Under the pieces are notes generated by a model. That model was not told where the DNA came from. It saw nothing but the letters and a program-made list of their open reading frames with translations, and did no database searches. This document shows positions 24,498 to 28,714 of a stretch of DNA of 64,000 nucleotides, one piece after another; within the stretch, counting starts at the first letter, position 1; every line of letters starts with the position of its first letter. Made by a program: the position numbers and the translations under genes. Source of the DNA: a bacterium A37T11. Lineage in GTDB: Bacteria; Bacteroidota; Bacteroidia; Sphingobacteriales; Sphingobacteriaceae. The DNA is taken from positions 62,001 to 126,000 of the forward strand of contig FOBR01000008.1 of NCBI GenBank assembly GCA_900109895.1, given 5' to 3'.

Positions 24498-26981
24498 TTA
24501 TTTTTTTTGTTCTTTAGCCAACAAATTTATAAATAATCTATAAGCTCCGGGCACTCCCGCCGGTAATTCCCTAAAAAAAGCAAGGGAAGTATAAACAAAC
24601 TTCCCTTTCCCATAGGGAGTAATGACCAAAGATCCCTTATTCGGTCGCTCTCCAGTATCGTGCATCTGCAAAGGCTGTTGATAATGGCTATCAACTTCTT
24701 CCACAAAATATAACCCGCGCTCTTGTGTCCAGCCTTCAAAATCGGTTGCCTTGATCTTATTTGGATAGTTAAGTGCCTGGTTTGACGCATCGGTTATTTC
24801 TACCTCCGCGTCTTCTTCAGTCACCCGGTCACGGCCAATGGAAAAAGGATAAGGGCCAATTTTGTTCAGGGTTAATCTTGAGTTAACGTTGTATTGCACA
24901 AGCAAGGTACCTCCGTTATTGACATATTCCAGTAAATGTGGCTGTAACAAGCGCATCCGATCATTGATGTTATACAGCCTAACGCCGGTAACAATAGCGT
25001 CATACATGGACAGGTCCTTTTTTAAAATTGTTTCCTCACTTAAATCATCTACCTGTATTCCTAACTCCCTTAAAGAAGGGGCGACCAGATCACCAGCCCC
25101 GGCTAAATAACCGATCCTCTTCACCGTGACCACCGCATCAATCTTACTCAGTCGCAATTTGCTCTCCGGAAACCAGGTTATCGCTGGGATGTGGTCATAA
25201 ACTATATTATGAATAGCTTTCGCTTGAACAGTTTGGCCACTTTCGGTAATTTCGAAAACCATTGAATCAGTTACCGACACATCTTTTGCAGGATAAATCG
25301 TGAATACTTTATCCATCTCTTCGCCCCGCCTCTTTAGGTCGAGATCAATGCTTTCTGGATCTGCGCGCCAGCCTTCGGGCACCACAGCTCTTACCATAGC
25401 CTTAACCCCATCTCGCTGTGCAGTGATCACCGCTTCCAATTTCCTGGGTTCTTCTCCCTTAAATATCAATGCCTTTTGCGACAAATTGACGGTTAAAGCA
25501 GGCGAAATGGAGAGGGGCACATAAATCTCTCCTTTGGCGGGATCCGCAAATTTGTACGATACAGACCTTTCAAACACGAGGCTTTTACCATTAATAGCTA
25601 GTCTAATGAACATTTTAGGGGTCGTCCTATTTTCGGGAAGAGTACGATCTTGTTGCCTATTAACAACGTAAGTACCTCTTGAATGGGGTAAGGATAGCCA
25701 ATAGGGCTGTGTTAACTCTTCTGCATGAAAAGTACTATGCTGTTCGGTCATCTCATTAAATTTGAGCACAGTGCTTCCGGACCCACTCTCTTCTGTTTGC
25801 AGCACGCTATTTGAAAGCTGTTGGATTTCTACACGTACATTCGGATTACGTACAATAAACTGAGTAGTTATTTGAATAGTTTCACCTAGAGCAAAACGGG
25901 GTGCGGGAGCATAGCTTTCTATCCAAACACCCCCGCAGGCCAGTATTAAGTTCTTTATTTCGCTAGCTTTTTGCGCCTTCCAATAGGTATCGTCAAGCGA
26001 TTCCACTTTGTTTAATAAATCAATAAGGGCCTGAATCGATTTTTCAGGATGCCGCATGTCAAAATCCATATTGATTTTATCGATCAGATCCGTGATCAGA
26101 TCCCCTCCTTTTATCCTGTTCCATGTGGTATCTACCCCATCCATCAATGAGCTGGTGGGCGCCTGCCCCAACAAAGTCTGAAAATATTCGGTTTCAGAAC
26201 CCCGTTGTTTTTCAGAACCGAAACCCTGTGTACGGTGATTAGACCGACTTTCAGCAGCTATTTCGCCATATGATTTTCCCAAAAGGGGATTATATTGGCC
26301 TATTTCCAATTTCAACTGGTTGAAATTGGAAGTATTTATAATCCCATATGAGAAGGTATTCCAAAGTAAACGCTTCGCTTGCCAAGGCTTCACAAACGCC
26401 AGTTGTTCCGGAAATCTCTTTGGATCGGCTGCCGCCACAAAAGCTTCTTTCGCCAGTATGGCAGAAGCTTGGTGATGTCCGTGGCCCGCTCTCGAATCCG
26501 GAGGAAACCGCGTAATGATCACATCAGGGTGAAGCAATCGTATAACCCACACGGCATCGGCCAATACTTGCTCTTTGTTCCAGTTATTTAGCGTTTCTTC
26601 AGCTGTTTTTGAGAAGCCAAAATCAATAGCCCTGCTAAAATACTGCTCGCCTCCATCCATGCGGCGGGCAGCCAGCAGCTCCTGCGTCCTTATAAGCCCT
26701 AATTCCTCTCCCTGCTCTGAACCAATTAAGTTCTGGCCACCATCCCCACGGGTTAGTGAAAAATAGGCTGTGCGGTAATGCTTTTCATTGGCCAGCCAGG
26801 TGATCAACCGCGTATTTTCATCATCCGGATGCGCAGCAAAGTACAACACATTTCCTAATGTACCCAATTTCTCCATTCCCGCTTTAATTGCAGAAGCATC
26901 CATTATTGGGGATGGCTGAGCCGACAATTTTAAAAGCTGTGAAAATGTCATCCAAATAAGAAGAGCGTACCTTTTATCCAT
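24498..26981 (-). CDS. PIG-L family deacetylase, large multidomain form
   Basis: 827 aa exported protein. Signal peptide (about 1-21), then an N-terminal PIG-L/LmbE domain (about 35-260) with zinc motif HPDDE and GHGHHQ, matching de-N-acetylases of GlcNAc-type sugars. The remaining 550 residues are beta-rich, followed by a C-terminal Rossmann/GATase-like domain (about 640-820; YVNNGGTLLVQYN). I start at ATG 26981: the upstream in-frame extension runs through the promoter-proximal region and is not signal-like. It follows a leader with mini-ORF and terminator (27081-27236) and precedes the 59-aa membrane gene. Confidence 0.85.
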   Translation of the reverse strand: MDKRYALLIWMTFSQLLKLSAQPSPIMDASAIKAGMEKLGTLGNVLYFAAHPDDENTRLITWLANEKHYRTAYFSLTRGDGGQNLIGSEQGEELGLIRTQELLAARRMDGGEQYFSRAIDFGFSKTAEETLNNWNKEQVLADAVWVIRLLHPDVIITRFPPDSRAGHGHHQASAILAKEAFVAAADPKRFPEQLAFVKPWQAKRLLWNTFSYGIINTSNFNQLKLEIGQYNPLLGKSYGEIAAESRSNHRTQGFGSEKQRGSETEYFQTLLGQAPTSSLMDGVDTTWNRIKGGDLITDLIDKINMDFDMRHPEKSIQALIDLLNKVESLDDTYWKAQKASEIKNLILACGGVWIESYAPAPRFALGETIQITTQFIVRNPNVRVEIQQLSNSVLQTEESGSGSTVLKFNEMTEQHSTFHAEELTQPYWLSLPHSRGTYVVNRQQDRTLPENRTTPKMFIRLAINGKSLVFERSVSYKFADPAKGEIYVPLSISPALTVNLSQKALIFKGEEPRKLEAVITAQRDGVKAMVRAVVPEGWRADPESIDLDLKRRGEEMDKVFTIYPAKDVSVTDSMVFEITESGQTVQAKAIHNIVYDHIPAITWFPESKLRLSKIDAVVTVKRIGYLAGAGDLVAPSLRELGIQVDDLSEETILKKDLSMYDAIVTGVRLYNINDRMRLLQPHLLEYVNNGGTLLVQYNVNSRLTLNKIGPYPFSIGRDRVTEEDAEVEITDASNQALNYPNKIKATDFEGWTQERGLYFVEEVDSHYQQPLQMHDTGERPNKGSLVITPYGKGKFVYTSLAFFRELPAGVPGAYRLFINLLAKEQKK

Positions 26982-27080
26982 TCGAACACTGTTTTTGAGG
27001 CCGTAAATATAAAAAGACCCTTCTGTAATGGCGCAGTGGAACGACAGTTTGATAAAAATTTTACCTAATAGCTGCAATTG

Positions 27081-27119
27081 AAAAAACAAAAGCCGCCCCG
27101 GGATCTGGACAGCTTTTGT
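27081..27119 (-). terminator. Strong intrinsic terminator/attenuator upstream of the PIG-L gene
   Basis: Minus-strand stem of 13 bp (ACAAAAGCTGTCC with GGGCGGCTTTTGT, including two G-U pairs), 8-nt loop, followed by an uninterrupted T run (27086-27081). It lies only 4 nt after the mini-ORF stop and 99 nt before the PIG-L ATG. Confidence 0.8.
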
Positions 27120-27122
27120 AAA

Positions 27123-27170
27123 TTAACAATTAAAAAAATTTACCGCTTCGAAGCTTACAGAATTATGCAT
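27123..27170 (-). CDS. Candidate 15-aa leader peptide
   Basis: ATG at 27168-27170, TAA at 27123-27125; encodes MHNSVSFEAVNFFNC. It has three Phe and three Asn and ends in Cys. Too short to judge by coding statistics; supported only by its place between a promoter-like element and a terminator. Could be a leader peptide of an attenuator or an ORF within a small RNA. Confidence 0.4.
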   Translation of the reverse strand: MHNSVSFEAVNFFNC

Positions 27171-27228
27171 CACTGCATGGTGGATTAAGCTATTAATAAG
27201 CCTTGAAGTAACTAACCTTTAATGCTAG

Positions 27229-27259
27229 TAAATGTACAAAACATTTTTTCCGGAACCAA
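27229..27259 (-). promoter_or_regulatory. Promoter-like element for the leader
   Basis: Minus strand: TTG (27259-27257), 20 nt, TACATTTA (27236-27229), 7 of 8 matches to the -7 consensus. Predicted start near 27224. Confidence 0.4.
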
Positions 27260-27387
27260 CAAAGTTTTCAACACCTGTTTGGTGTTTTCCACATAACTTT
27301 CGTCATTTTATTGAAATAGAAAGCTTTATCTGTGCTTATTTTTATATTAATGAAAACAAAGAATTTTAAAATACCGGGTTTCTTTAA

Positions 27388-27645
27388 TCATTTATCTATA
27401 GAACCCAAAACCCGTTTCATAAATGCATTTAAAGCATCCTTTTGTTCCATACCACTTTTCACCAGCTTATTCACCTCCAGGGCACCATAAAAATTGGAAA
27501 TCAATTCTCCGATAACATCCAACTCTTCGTCTTTTAGTGCAGATGATTCGGTTAAATATTCAAGTGTTTCGATCGTCTCCAGCACATAGTCCTCATCATT
27601 ATCTGCAATAAACTGCTGCAGATGTTTAATTATGGGTAACTTCAT
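27388..27645 (-). CDS. DUF6952-like small protein
   Basis: 85 aa, acidic and helical, no signal peptide. I recognise it as the small protein that commonly accompanies thioredoxin and peroxiredoxin in Bacteroidota (DUF6952), but the family name is from memory. Starts inside the last 20 nt of the thioredoxin gene in another frame, so translation is coupled. Function unknown; probably part of the same peroxide response. Confidence 0.7.
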   Translation of the reverse strand: MKLPIIKHLQQFIADNDEDYVLETIETLEYLTESSALKDEELDVIGELISNFYGALEVNKLVKSGMEQKDALNAFMKRVLGSIDK

Positions 27646-27940
27646 TGACCAGCTCCGTTAAAGATTCCAATTTATTCGTCTGAACCTGGTTGATGAGCTT
27701 TCCACCTTTAAAAGCGGCAAAAGTGGGCAGATTTGATACGTCAGCCAATTTCCGTGATTCGGGAAACTTCTCAGCGTCGGCAATCACAAACGGCACATCT
27801 TCATGTTCTCCGGCCAGTTTTTTAAATTTCGGCTTCATGATTTTGCAGTTTCCGCACCAGGAAGCCGCGTATTGTACCAGTACTACATCATTGCCCGAAA
27901 CAATTTCCGACAAGTTGTCCTGTTCTAACTCTTGTACCAT
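27626..27940 (-). CDS. Thioredoxin family protein
   Basis: 104 aa single-domain thioredoxin, cytoplasmic. Active site WCGNC (Cys29, Cys32), cis-Pro in NLPTFAAF. The usual GP is replaced by GN between the cysteines, which alters redox potential. Located 16 nt after the peroxiredoxin gene, which it likely reduces. Confidence 0.9.
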   Translation of the reverse strand: MVQELEQDNLSEIVSGNDVVLVQYAASWCGNCKIMKPKFKKLAGEHEDVPFVIADAEKFPESRKLADVSNLPTFAAFKGGKLINQVQTNKLESLTELVNEVTHN

Positions 27941-27956: not shown

Positions 27957-28595
27957 TTAATTTGCAGACAGGTAACTGGCTACACCCTGACGGGTAGCAC
28001 TCATGGCTTCTTTGCCCTCTTCCCAGTTTGCCGGGCATACTTCCCCGTGTTTCTGTACATGAGCGTAAGCATCAATCAGCCTAATATATTCTTTAACATT
28101 TCTTCCCAATGGCATATCGTTCACACTCTCATGAAAAACCTTTCCATCCTCATCTATGAGATACGTGGCGCGATACGTAACGTTTGATCCTTCCGTAATC
28201 ACTTCCCTAAGCTCCTCGTCATATTCTTCTTTCCCTATATCCAATATACCCAGCAATTTTGACAAATTACGGTTGGTATCTGCCAAAATTGGATAGGTCA
28301 CGCCCTCAATGCCTCCATTATCCTTGGCAGTATTTAGCCAGGCAAAGTGCACTTCATTGGTATCACAAGAAGCACCAATAACGATGGTATGCCGTTTTTC
28401 AAACTCTGGTAATGCTTCCTGAAAAGCGTGCAACTCTGTTGGGCAAACAAACGTAAAATCTTTAGGGTACCAGAATAGTAATACTTTTTTTCCTTTGGAA
28501 ACAGCTTCCTGAAAAATATTTATTTTTAAATCATCGCCCATGTGGTCCATGGCGTCAACAGCAATGTTTGGAAACTTTTTACCTACTAAACTCAT
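27957..28595 (-). CDS. Peroxiredoxin, typical 2-Cys (AhpC/Prx1 class)
   Basis: 212 aa cytoplasmic peroxidase that reduces H2O2 and alkyl hydroperoxides. Peroxidatic Cys51 in FTFVCPTE and resolving Cys187 in HGEVCPANW. Start taken as ATG 28595 (MSLVGKKFPN); the upstream in-frame extension crosses the predicted promoter. First gene of a three-gene unit (prx-trx-DUF6952). An 18-bp dyad at 28697-28714 stands about 50 nt upstream of the -7 box and may be an operator. Confidence 0.93.
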   Translation of the reverse strand: MSLVGKKFPNIAVDAMDHMGDDLKINIFQEAVSKGKKVLLFWYPKDFTFVCPTELHAFQEALPEFEKRHTIVIGASCDTNEVHFAWLNTAKDNGGIEGVTYPILADTNRNLSKLLGILDIGKEEYDEELREVITEGSNVTYRATYLIDEDGKVFHESVNDMPLGRNVKEYIRLIDAYAHVQKHGEVCPANWEEGKEAMSATRQGVASYLSAN

Positions 28596-28638: not shown

Positions 28639-28646
28639 CAAAGATA
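28639..28646 (-). promoter_or_regulatory. -7 promoter element for the peroxiredoxin operon
   Basis: TATCTTTG on the minus strand; predicted leader about 37-40 nt. No -33 box at the normal distance, as expected for a promoter needing an activator. Confidence 0.4.
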
Positions 28647-28696
28647 GGGCAAAGAGCCTTTAGGGTGTTATCCTTTTTATCGATACAGGAATAGCT

Positions 28697-28714
28697 TGTG
28701 TCTATTAAGACACA
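28697..28714. promoter_or_regulatory. 18-bp dyad, candidate operator
   Basis: TGTGTCT-ATTA-AGACACA, perfect 7-bp arms, located in the 5' region of the peroxiredoxin operon. Confidence 0.35.

Follow-up and report, generated by a model that had tools for sequence, protein, structure and literature searches.

Within the window analysed here (the whole 64,000-nucleotide stretch of DNA from the Sphingobacteriaceae bacterium A37T11), a promoter-like pair, a 15-codon mini-ORF and a terminator precede a PIG-L family gene on the minus strand. Do these elements control PIG-L, or do they form a gene in their own right? The initial annotation offered either attenuation of PIG-L by leader translation or a stand-alone RNA of about 140 nt with an ORF. 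Based on comparison of sequences across genomes, the locus is best read as a new small RNA (sRNA) family, known so far only from this bacterial family (Sphingobacteriaceae), and most likely represents a small RNA gene that has its own promoter and stop signal and is located where gene sets for peroxide detoxification end. Judged in this way, the stretch is better as a finding than as first interpreted, a new small RNA family rather than an attenuator.

The elements described initially were all found in place, that is, the TTG and -7 element 20 nt apart, the ORF of 15 codons, the 13-bp terminator stem with its T run, and the PIG-L start codon downstream (Table 1). That description lacked two boxes upstream of the promoter and the peroxiredoxin operon beyond them. 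The start of the RNA is predicted near 27224 because the flavobacterial sigma-A promoter box spans -12 to -5 (PMC9723704). TTAAAGGTTAG follows from 27222 on the minus strand.

Table 1. Positions of the predicted small RNA gene and neighbouring features in the window.
Feature	Position	Strand	Basis or remark
-33-like TTG	27257..27259	-	position only; 20 nt before the -7 element
-7 element TACATTTA, Bacteroidota sigma-A promoter	27229..27236	-	TA and TTTA invariant, 11/11 aligned
Distal box TGTGGAAAAC	27284..27293	-	includes TGTGGAAAA
Proximal box TGTTGAAAAC	27264..27273	-	37 nt before the TA of the -7 element
Small RNA gene, ~145 nt	27080..27224	-	both ends predicted; 5' end 27224, 3' end in the T run
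5' segment TTAAAGGTTAGT, conserved (AAGGTTAA in most relatives)	27211..27222	-	sequence conservation
P1 stem, 5' arm ACTTCAAGGCTTA	27197..27209	-	stem comparison across loci
P1 stem, 3' arm TAAGCTTCGAAG	27146..27157	-	stem comparison across loci
Apical hairpin ATGCAGTGATGCAT	27165..27178	-	kept in Olivibacter with changed pairs; not family-wide
15-codon mini-ORF, MHNSVSFEAVNFFNC	27123..27170	-	not conserved
3' unpaired segment TTTTTTTAATTGTTAATTT, conserved	27120..27138	-	TTTAATTG invariant in 32/32 model-selected sequences
Intrinsic terminator hairpin and T run	27080..27119	-	13-pair stem 27119-27086, then six T
PIG-L promoter-like box TATATTTA	27004..27011	-	downstream of the RNA terminator, 22 nt before the ATG
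PIG-L family gene	24498..26981	-	ATG at 26981; probably a separate transcription unit
DUF6952 gene, third in peroxiredoxin operon	27388..27645	-	
Thioredoxin gene	27626..27940	-	
Peroxiredoxin gene (AhpC/TSA, 1-cysPrx_C)	27957..28595	-	
Peroxiredoxin operon -7 element TATCTTTG	28639..28646	-	
OxyR-like site ATAGACACAAGCTAT, upstream of peroxiredoxin operon	28691..28705	-	motif ATAG-N7-CTAT

The terminator scan was weak by itself, with nine terminator-like sites against 6.2 expected in 6 kb on both strands, and the predicted fold of 27221-27079 was more stable than shuffled sequences (z -2.43, 2/200). The locus rises above chance because it is conserved, as seen in its blastn relatives, its pattern-scan matches and its covarying stems. 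A blastn search with 201 bases against 60 genomes matched six, including the window's own genome. Two matches were long (L003, L004); two were shorter, covered the 3' half (L002, L006) and were later recognized as the same RNA; one further match had only 32 bases (L005). A gapped pattern built from these matches was used for a single scan over 84,980 species genomes and returned 11 stretches, six from Parapedobacter, four from Olivibacter and one from Flavobacterium. The Flavobacterium match (L016), which by eye has neither promoter nor terminator, was dropped as a chance match. In an alignment of 11 sequences, the TA of the -7 element and its TTTA were invariant, and neither was part of the pattern that had fetched the sequences. 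AAAGGTTA and TTTTTTAATTGTTAAT were likewise invariant, mostly by construction; the TTAAAGGTTA and TTTTTTAATTGTTAAT blocks are so because both were in the pattern that fetched 10 of the 11.

At E≤0.1, a covariance model (R1) made from the 11 sequences, which represent three genera, found matches in 83 of the 201 family genomes searched, and not all of these were genuine. Fifty R1 matches were fetched and four were judged false: L050, L059 and L060, which by eye have coding sequence upstream, and L062. A wider model (R2), trained on 32 sequences, matched 110 of 251 genomes at E≤0.01, covariance-model E-values being rough, with one match per matched genome. These matches fall in 15 of 25 genera, or about 14 of the sampled genera since the lone match in genus g14 is doubtful. 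Genus g18 has one locus with a copy that, judged by position, has diverged (35 bits). Among 28 genomes from genera or strains without strong matches, six weak matches were obtained (E 0.0097 to 0.093), and the RNA was not credibly found in the large genus g14 or in several other genera. The loci examined in g14, g5 and g3 have a short terminator alone behind DUF6952; the RNA is thus apparently dispensable. Outside the family, no credible match was found among 395 genomes of the class in a weak scan that scored only seven candidates per genome. That scan gave seven matches at E≤0.01, six of them inside the family; the one outside (G255/L157) reads as the tail of a coding gene followed by a terminator and was rejected.

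For the comparisons below we used 67 loci, these being 70 matches (from 75 sources) minus L157 and L062, considered chance matches, and L206 of g14, considered doubtful from its score and context. Loci of the same genus are not independent, and the shuffles used for stems, covariation and boxes take no account of relatedness. Comparison of these loci establishes a family with a conserved promoter, conserved stems and unpaired segments, and a conserved position in the genome. Its parts have a fixed order, beginning with a sigma-A-type promoter and an unpaired AAGGUUAA, continuing with a stem that covaries and whose cap is variable, and ending with an unpaired UUUUUAAUUGUUAAUU and a terminator hairpin.

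The pairing of the stem before the second unpaired segment (P1) was assessed by an alignment-free swap test, in which the arms were taken at fixed distances from anchors, giving 57 distinct pairs from 63 of the 67 rows (the four rows without an anchor were skipped). Own partners had a mean energy of -13.6 kcal/mol versus -8.7 kcal/mol for swapped partners, a difference that was reached in 0 of 10,000 permutations, and the own partner ranked about seventh of 57 on average. The terminator arms gave -22.5 versus -9.2 kcal/mol for 60 pairs, a comparison that is biased because these arms were drawn from each sequence's own fold. In the MAFFT alignment (A4), 75.8% of cells can pair versus 61.6% after shuffling (0/500), and the covariation score was 0.458 versus 0.228 (0/500). 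Sliding the partner by one column reduced the score to 0.241 or less, although the tested structure had also been selected on A4, which favours it over the slid versions. Changes on both sides of a pair were seen in 9 of 10 pairs of the terminator helix and 7 of 8 pairs of P1, and the overall count of 16 of 18 was equalled in 27 of 500 shuffles. P1 is paired in just 65% of A4 cells because MAFFT places its 5' arm unevenly; checked sequence by sequence, the arms pair. Such pair-preserving changes mean that the stretch acts as RNA. The two segments that flank P1, one before it and one between it and the terminator, are conserved and are unpaired in the structure model.

The initial annotation had tied its reading to the conservation of both the stem and the mini-ORF in relatives. 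The stem covaries, as described above, and the mini-ORF had to be rejected. This is because 43 of the 67 rows have no closed ORF of at least six codons (counting ATG starts only), and no peptide common to different genera could be recognized by eye. That the stretch is a messenger for a tiny protein, a reading that has the 15-codon ORF of the window in its favour, is scarcely credible on these counts. The proposed stand-alone RNA with an ORF thus holds for its first half, the small RNA, and fails for its second. The sequence has what is expected of an sRNA gene, including its own promoter, an intrinsic terminator and no conserved ORF.

The genes downstream of the RNA also vary. PIG-L follows directly, in the same orientation, at 28 of the 67 loci. 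In 33 loci the next gene is on the opposite strand, and encodes an MFS transporter (22), a cyanophycin-synthetase-like protein (5), an AAA_28 protein (4) or another product (2); L188 and L197, both among the five cyanophycin-synthetase-like loci, have an intervening same-strand ORF of 74-80 aa. Of the remaining six loci, four have an aminotransferase-like gene followed by mutL, one has a different gene on the same strand and one has no gene within reach. A scripted rule for a PIG-L promoter (TAnnTTTA after the RNA terminator and no more than 40 nt before an in-frame ATG) was applied to the 28 PIG-L loci, and 16 of them fit. The box was 22 nt before the ATG in the window and just 3-6 nt before it in the other 15, and because of this short distance the PIG-L mRNA in those 15 loci may be nearly leaderless. 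The 12 loci that do not fit the rule are ten of g21, one of g22 and one of g4. In seven g21 loci, a conserved TAAATTTT was seen by eye some 50-80 nt before the ATG and may be the promoter of those PIG-L genes.

These arrangements bear directly on the proposal that the stretch is a translation-controlled attenuator leader of PIG-L. In the window, promoter, ORF, terminator and gene follow one another as they would in such a leader, PIG-L does lie downstream in the 28 loci, and 12 of these have no rule-fitting box at the ATG. However, neither a conserved leader ORF nor a regulated gene that is consistently on the same strand and without its own promoter was found. The RNA is not a PIG-L attenuator, we reason, because PIG-L follows in a minority of loci, the next gene is on the other strand in about half, and 16 of the 28 PIG-L genes, among them that of the window, have a promoter box of their own after the terminator. 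Judging from these gene orders, the RNA cannot in general be the PIG-L leader, PIG-L is probably a separate transcription unit, and attenuation by leader translation, as first suggested, is extremely improbable.

The genes upstream of the RNA are more uniform. A peroxiredoxin operon was found there in 51 of the 67 loci (51 of 70 with L157, L062 and L206 kept), in one of two forms: Prx-Trx-DUF6952 (22/67), as in the window, or AhpC-AhpD (29/67), whose AhpD is a carboxymuconolactone-decarboxylase family protein. The other upstream genes are S9-peptidase-like in eight loci, all in g21, and of other types in eight, including an unrelated gene in Olivibacter sitiensis. (The labels S9-peptidase, cyanophycin-synthetase-like, aminotransferase-like/mutL, MraZ/mraW and B12-dependent reductase are putative assignments, made in part by BLAST similarity.) A search for DUF6952 alone in 15 genomes of eight other genera (g2, g7, g12, g15, g19, g20, g21, g25) found it in none, and 12 of these 15 genomes have AhpC-AhpD before the RNA. 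That DUF6952 is absent where AhpC-AhpD occupies the site suggests an exchange of one peroxide-reductase operon for the other next to an RNA that stayed where it was.

The promoters of these operons differ from that of the RNA in their upstream sites. The OxyR motif is ATAG-N7-CTAT. Within 170 nt of the operon promoters, an exact site was present in 20 of 38 cases versus 0.25 expected; when one mismatch was allowed, 35 of the 38 had a site versus 5.2 expected, including that of the window at 28705-28691. Within 90 nt of the RNA promoter, exact sites were found in 0 of 67 loci and sites with at most one mismatch in 4 of 67.

The operons often lack an obvious end of their own. Under permissive rules, which recovered the RNA's own terminator in 67 of 67 loci, the gap between upstream gene and RNA has a terminator-like site in 15 of 59 loci, including three Olivibacter loci, part of g15 and several AhpC-AhpD loci, and none in 44 of 59; a stricter scan gave 2 of 59. 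With no terminator in the gap in most genomes, the operon there seems to end at the terminator of the RNA, and transcription would probably read through from the operon into the RNA. The same facts could mean that the stretch is simply the untranslated 3' end of the peroxiredoxin operon mRNA, with its terminator, and serves mRNA stability or termination with no independent RNA. The 44 gaps without a terminator-like site and the operon linkage in 51 loci both agree with this. It leaves unneeded, however, the invariant sigma-A -7 element (11/11) and the phased box described below. Ahead of the RNA, the three Olivibacter loci and a number of AhpC-AhpD loci carry another terminator-like site, and the RNA is preceded by the peptidase-like gene in the eight g21 loci and by the unrelated gene in O. 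sitiensis. We consider an untranslated region without its own RNA decidedly unlikely.

Of the 67 loci, 40 carry a box, TGTKGAAAA(C), in the 90 nt that precede the RNA, versus 0.64 expected from shuffled sequences; it was found in 0 of 38 operon promoters. It is present in 22 of 22 Prx loci, 8 of 8 peptidase loci and 7 of 29 AhpC-AhpD loci; of the 27 loci in which it is missing, 22 are AhpC-AhpD. In 39 loci the distance from the start of the nearest box to the TA of the -7 element could be compared: 16 loci have 37 nt, 22 have 48-51 nt, and a single locus has 41 nt. The two preferred positions are about one helical turn apart, which suggests that the box binds an activator of the RNA promoter. 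In the gap before the RNA of one locus (L189), two boxes form an inverted repeat within a 20-pair hairpin.

The window's genome (5.09 Mb) has a single place where two boxes lie 3-25 nt from each other, that of the distal and proximal boxes. A search for the box together with a promoter in eight genomes gave 26 matches versus eight for a reversed control, and the RNA was among them in seven of the eight genomes. We examined 12 other box loci. Five of these have MraZ followed by mraW and a sixth has mraW only, with GTGGG repeats adjoining the box, and in three (L220, L227, L242) the gene is one that we take to be a B12-dependent ribonucleotide reductase. The mraZ-type box loci are L218, L221, L222, L223 and L240. 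The shared box suggests a common regulator for the RNA, mraZ and the ribonucleotide-reductase-like gene. The DnaA-box consensus is TTWTNCACA; TGTGGAAAA and TTTTCCACA fit it, and TGTTGAAAA and the TTTTCAACA form do not. DnaA as the regulator is therefore a lead only, because one form of the box is off consensus and the GTGGG repeat at mraZ may belong to MraZ itself.

Following that lead, the RNA could be linked to replication, with a promoter controlled by DnaA, a regulon shared with mraZ and the B12-dependent ribonucleotide reductase, and an additional supply by read-through from the peroxide-induced, OxyR-type operon. We regard this version as unlikely; if true, peroxide stress in these bacteria would be coupled to DNA synthesis and division. 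The boxes had also made us suspect a replication origin, and the broader proposal is that the stretch acts as DNA, either as an origin or as a site that titrates DnaA. Two or three DnaA-like boxes and the AT-rich conserved blocks would suit such a site. There is, however, no switch of GC skew at the element in the window, and in a complete Olivibacter genome the skew switches near 1.46 Mb versus an RNA position of 1.692 Mb. For these two cases GC skew rules out an origin; in genome G135 the switch zone is broad. Since the pair-preserving changes in the stems indicate RNA, a role of the stretch as DNA is highly improbable.

Overall, our data favour, with a probability of about 0.65, a small regulatory RNA at the 3' end of the peroxiredoxin operon that is made from its own promoter with activation through the box, is additionally supplied by the operon, and acts by pairing in trans. 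In this model, RNA polymerase would start at the RNA's own sigma-A promoter, helped by a protein bound at the upstream TGTKGAAAAC, and would stop at the intrinsic terminator, giving an RNA of ~145 nt. Under peroxide, induced read-through from the operon would add operon-borne RNA and would end at the same terminator, as most genomes show no terminator between operon and RNA. P1 and the terminator would keep AAGGUUAA and UUUUUAAUUGUUAAUU open, and the likeliest role of these open segments would be to base-pair with mRNAs from other loci. At the start region of the neighbouring prx or ahpC mRNA, they paired no better than shuffled sequences did (mean z -0.20 and -0.02, n=31). Expression of the RNA, its activation, the read-through and the pairing in trans are all steps that we infer from the arrangement of the conserved parts.

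To our knowledge, small RNAs of the Bacteroidota are known mainly from Bacteroides and a few flavobacteria. Among the matches listed in a search of the open-licence literature, we found no description of this RNA and no sRNA described in this bacterial family. The present RNA occurs across many genera with covarying stems and its own promoter box, behind two different peroxiredoxin operons. It may thus serve as an entry point to RNA regulation in environmental Bacteroidota and to the way in which peroxide defence and growth are connected there, and the box that it shares with mraZ and the ribonucleotide-reductase-like gene gives a specific, testable prediction on the regulator.

Comparison with known RNAs gave no equivalent. 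At Rfam gathering scores the only two matches in the window were tRNAs and none was on the RNA; at E up to 10, nine sub-threshold matches fell in the region, the best being L10_leader with 21.1 bits versus a threshold of 44. The Bacteroidetes motifs 6S-flavo, Flavo-1 and Pedo-repair, listed with Rfam numbers in PMC2864571, gave no match in the window at the gathering score. The 6S and 6S-Flavo RNAs (RF00013, RF01685) deserve separate mention, as they resemble this RNA in their size and in having one match per genome. The RNA could conceivably be this family's version of 6S RNA, which binds RNA polymerase, in a form that has diverged beyond the reach of the models, as neither Rfam model scored above its cut-off in 31 genomes (19 of this family), although the silence of 6S-Flavo says little because that model passes its cut-off in 0 of 14 control genomes. 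Against a 6S identity, the predicted folds lack a long rod with a central bubble, and the architecture is a different one, in which conservation lies in unpaired segments that accompany a single short stem and a terminator. No 6S model matched the RNA even at E up to 10, and whole genera appear to be without it. We judge a 6S RNA to be very unlikely.

A 429-nt transcript of Porphyromonas with a DUF4248 ORF affects peroxide tolerance (PMC6231650), and from its description is probably unrelated to the RNA. GibS of Bacteroides thetaiotaomicron (RF04182) has a similar layout, being an intergenic gene of similar length (model length 142) whose 5' part is conserved and largely single-stranded and is followed by central hairpins, a linear part and an intrinsic terminator (PMC7366714). 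There is no credible sequence relation, as the RNA scores 18.4 bits against the GibS model (E 4.1) versus a gathering score of 115. Rfp18 of Flavobacterium psychrophilum is likewise a conserved stand-alone sRNA, in another group of the Bacteroidota; it affects metalloprotease mRNAs and is predicted to pair through its third stem-loop (PMC9723704). In these respects Rfp18, compared by description, differs from the RNA described here.

OxyS of E. coli is a small RNA made from an OxyR-activated promoter. The present RNA is similarly a small RNA tied to peroxide defence and, compared by description, differs in that no exact OxyR-like site stands in the 90 nt at its own promoter in any of the 67 loci. 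The sRNAs located in 3' untranslated regions form a class with their own promoter and a terminator in common with the parent operon. Criteria for this class are given in PMC7366714, and the present RNA is alike in having its own promoter within the 3' region and, in most genomes, an apparently common terminator. It differs in that the parent operon varies between genera while the RNA stays.
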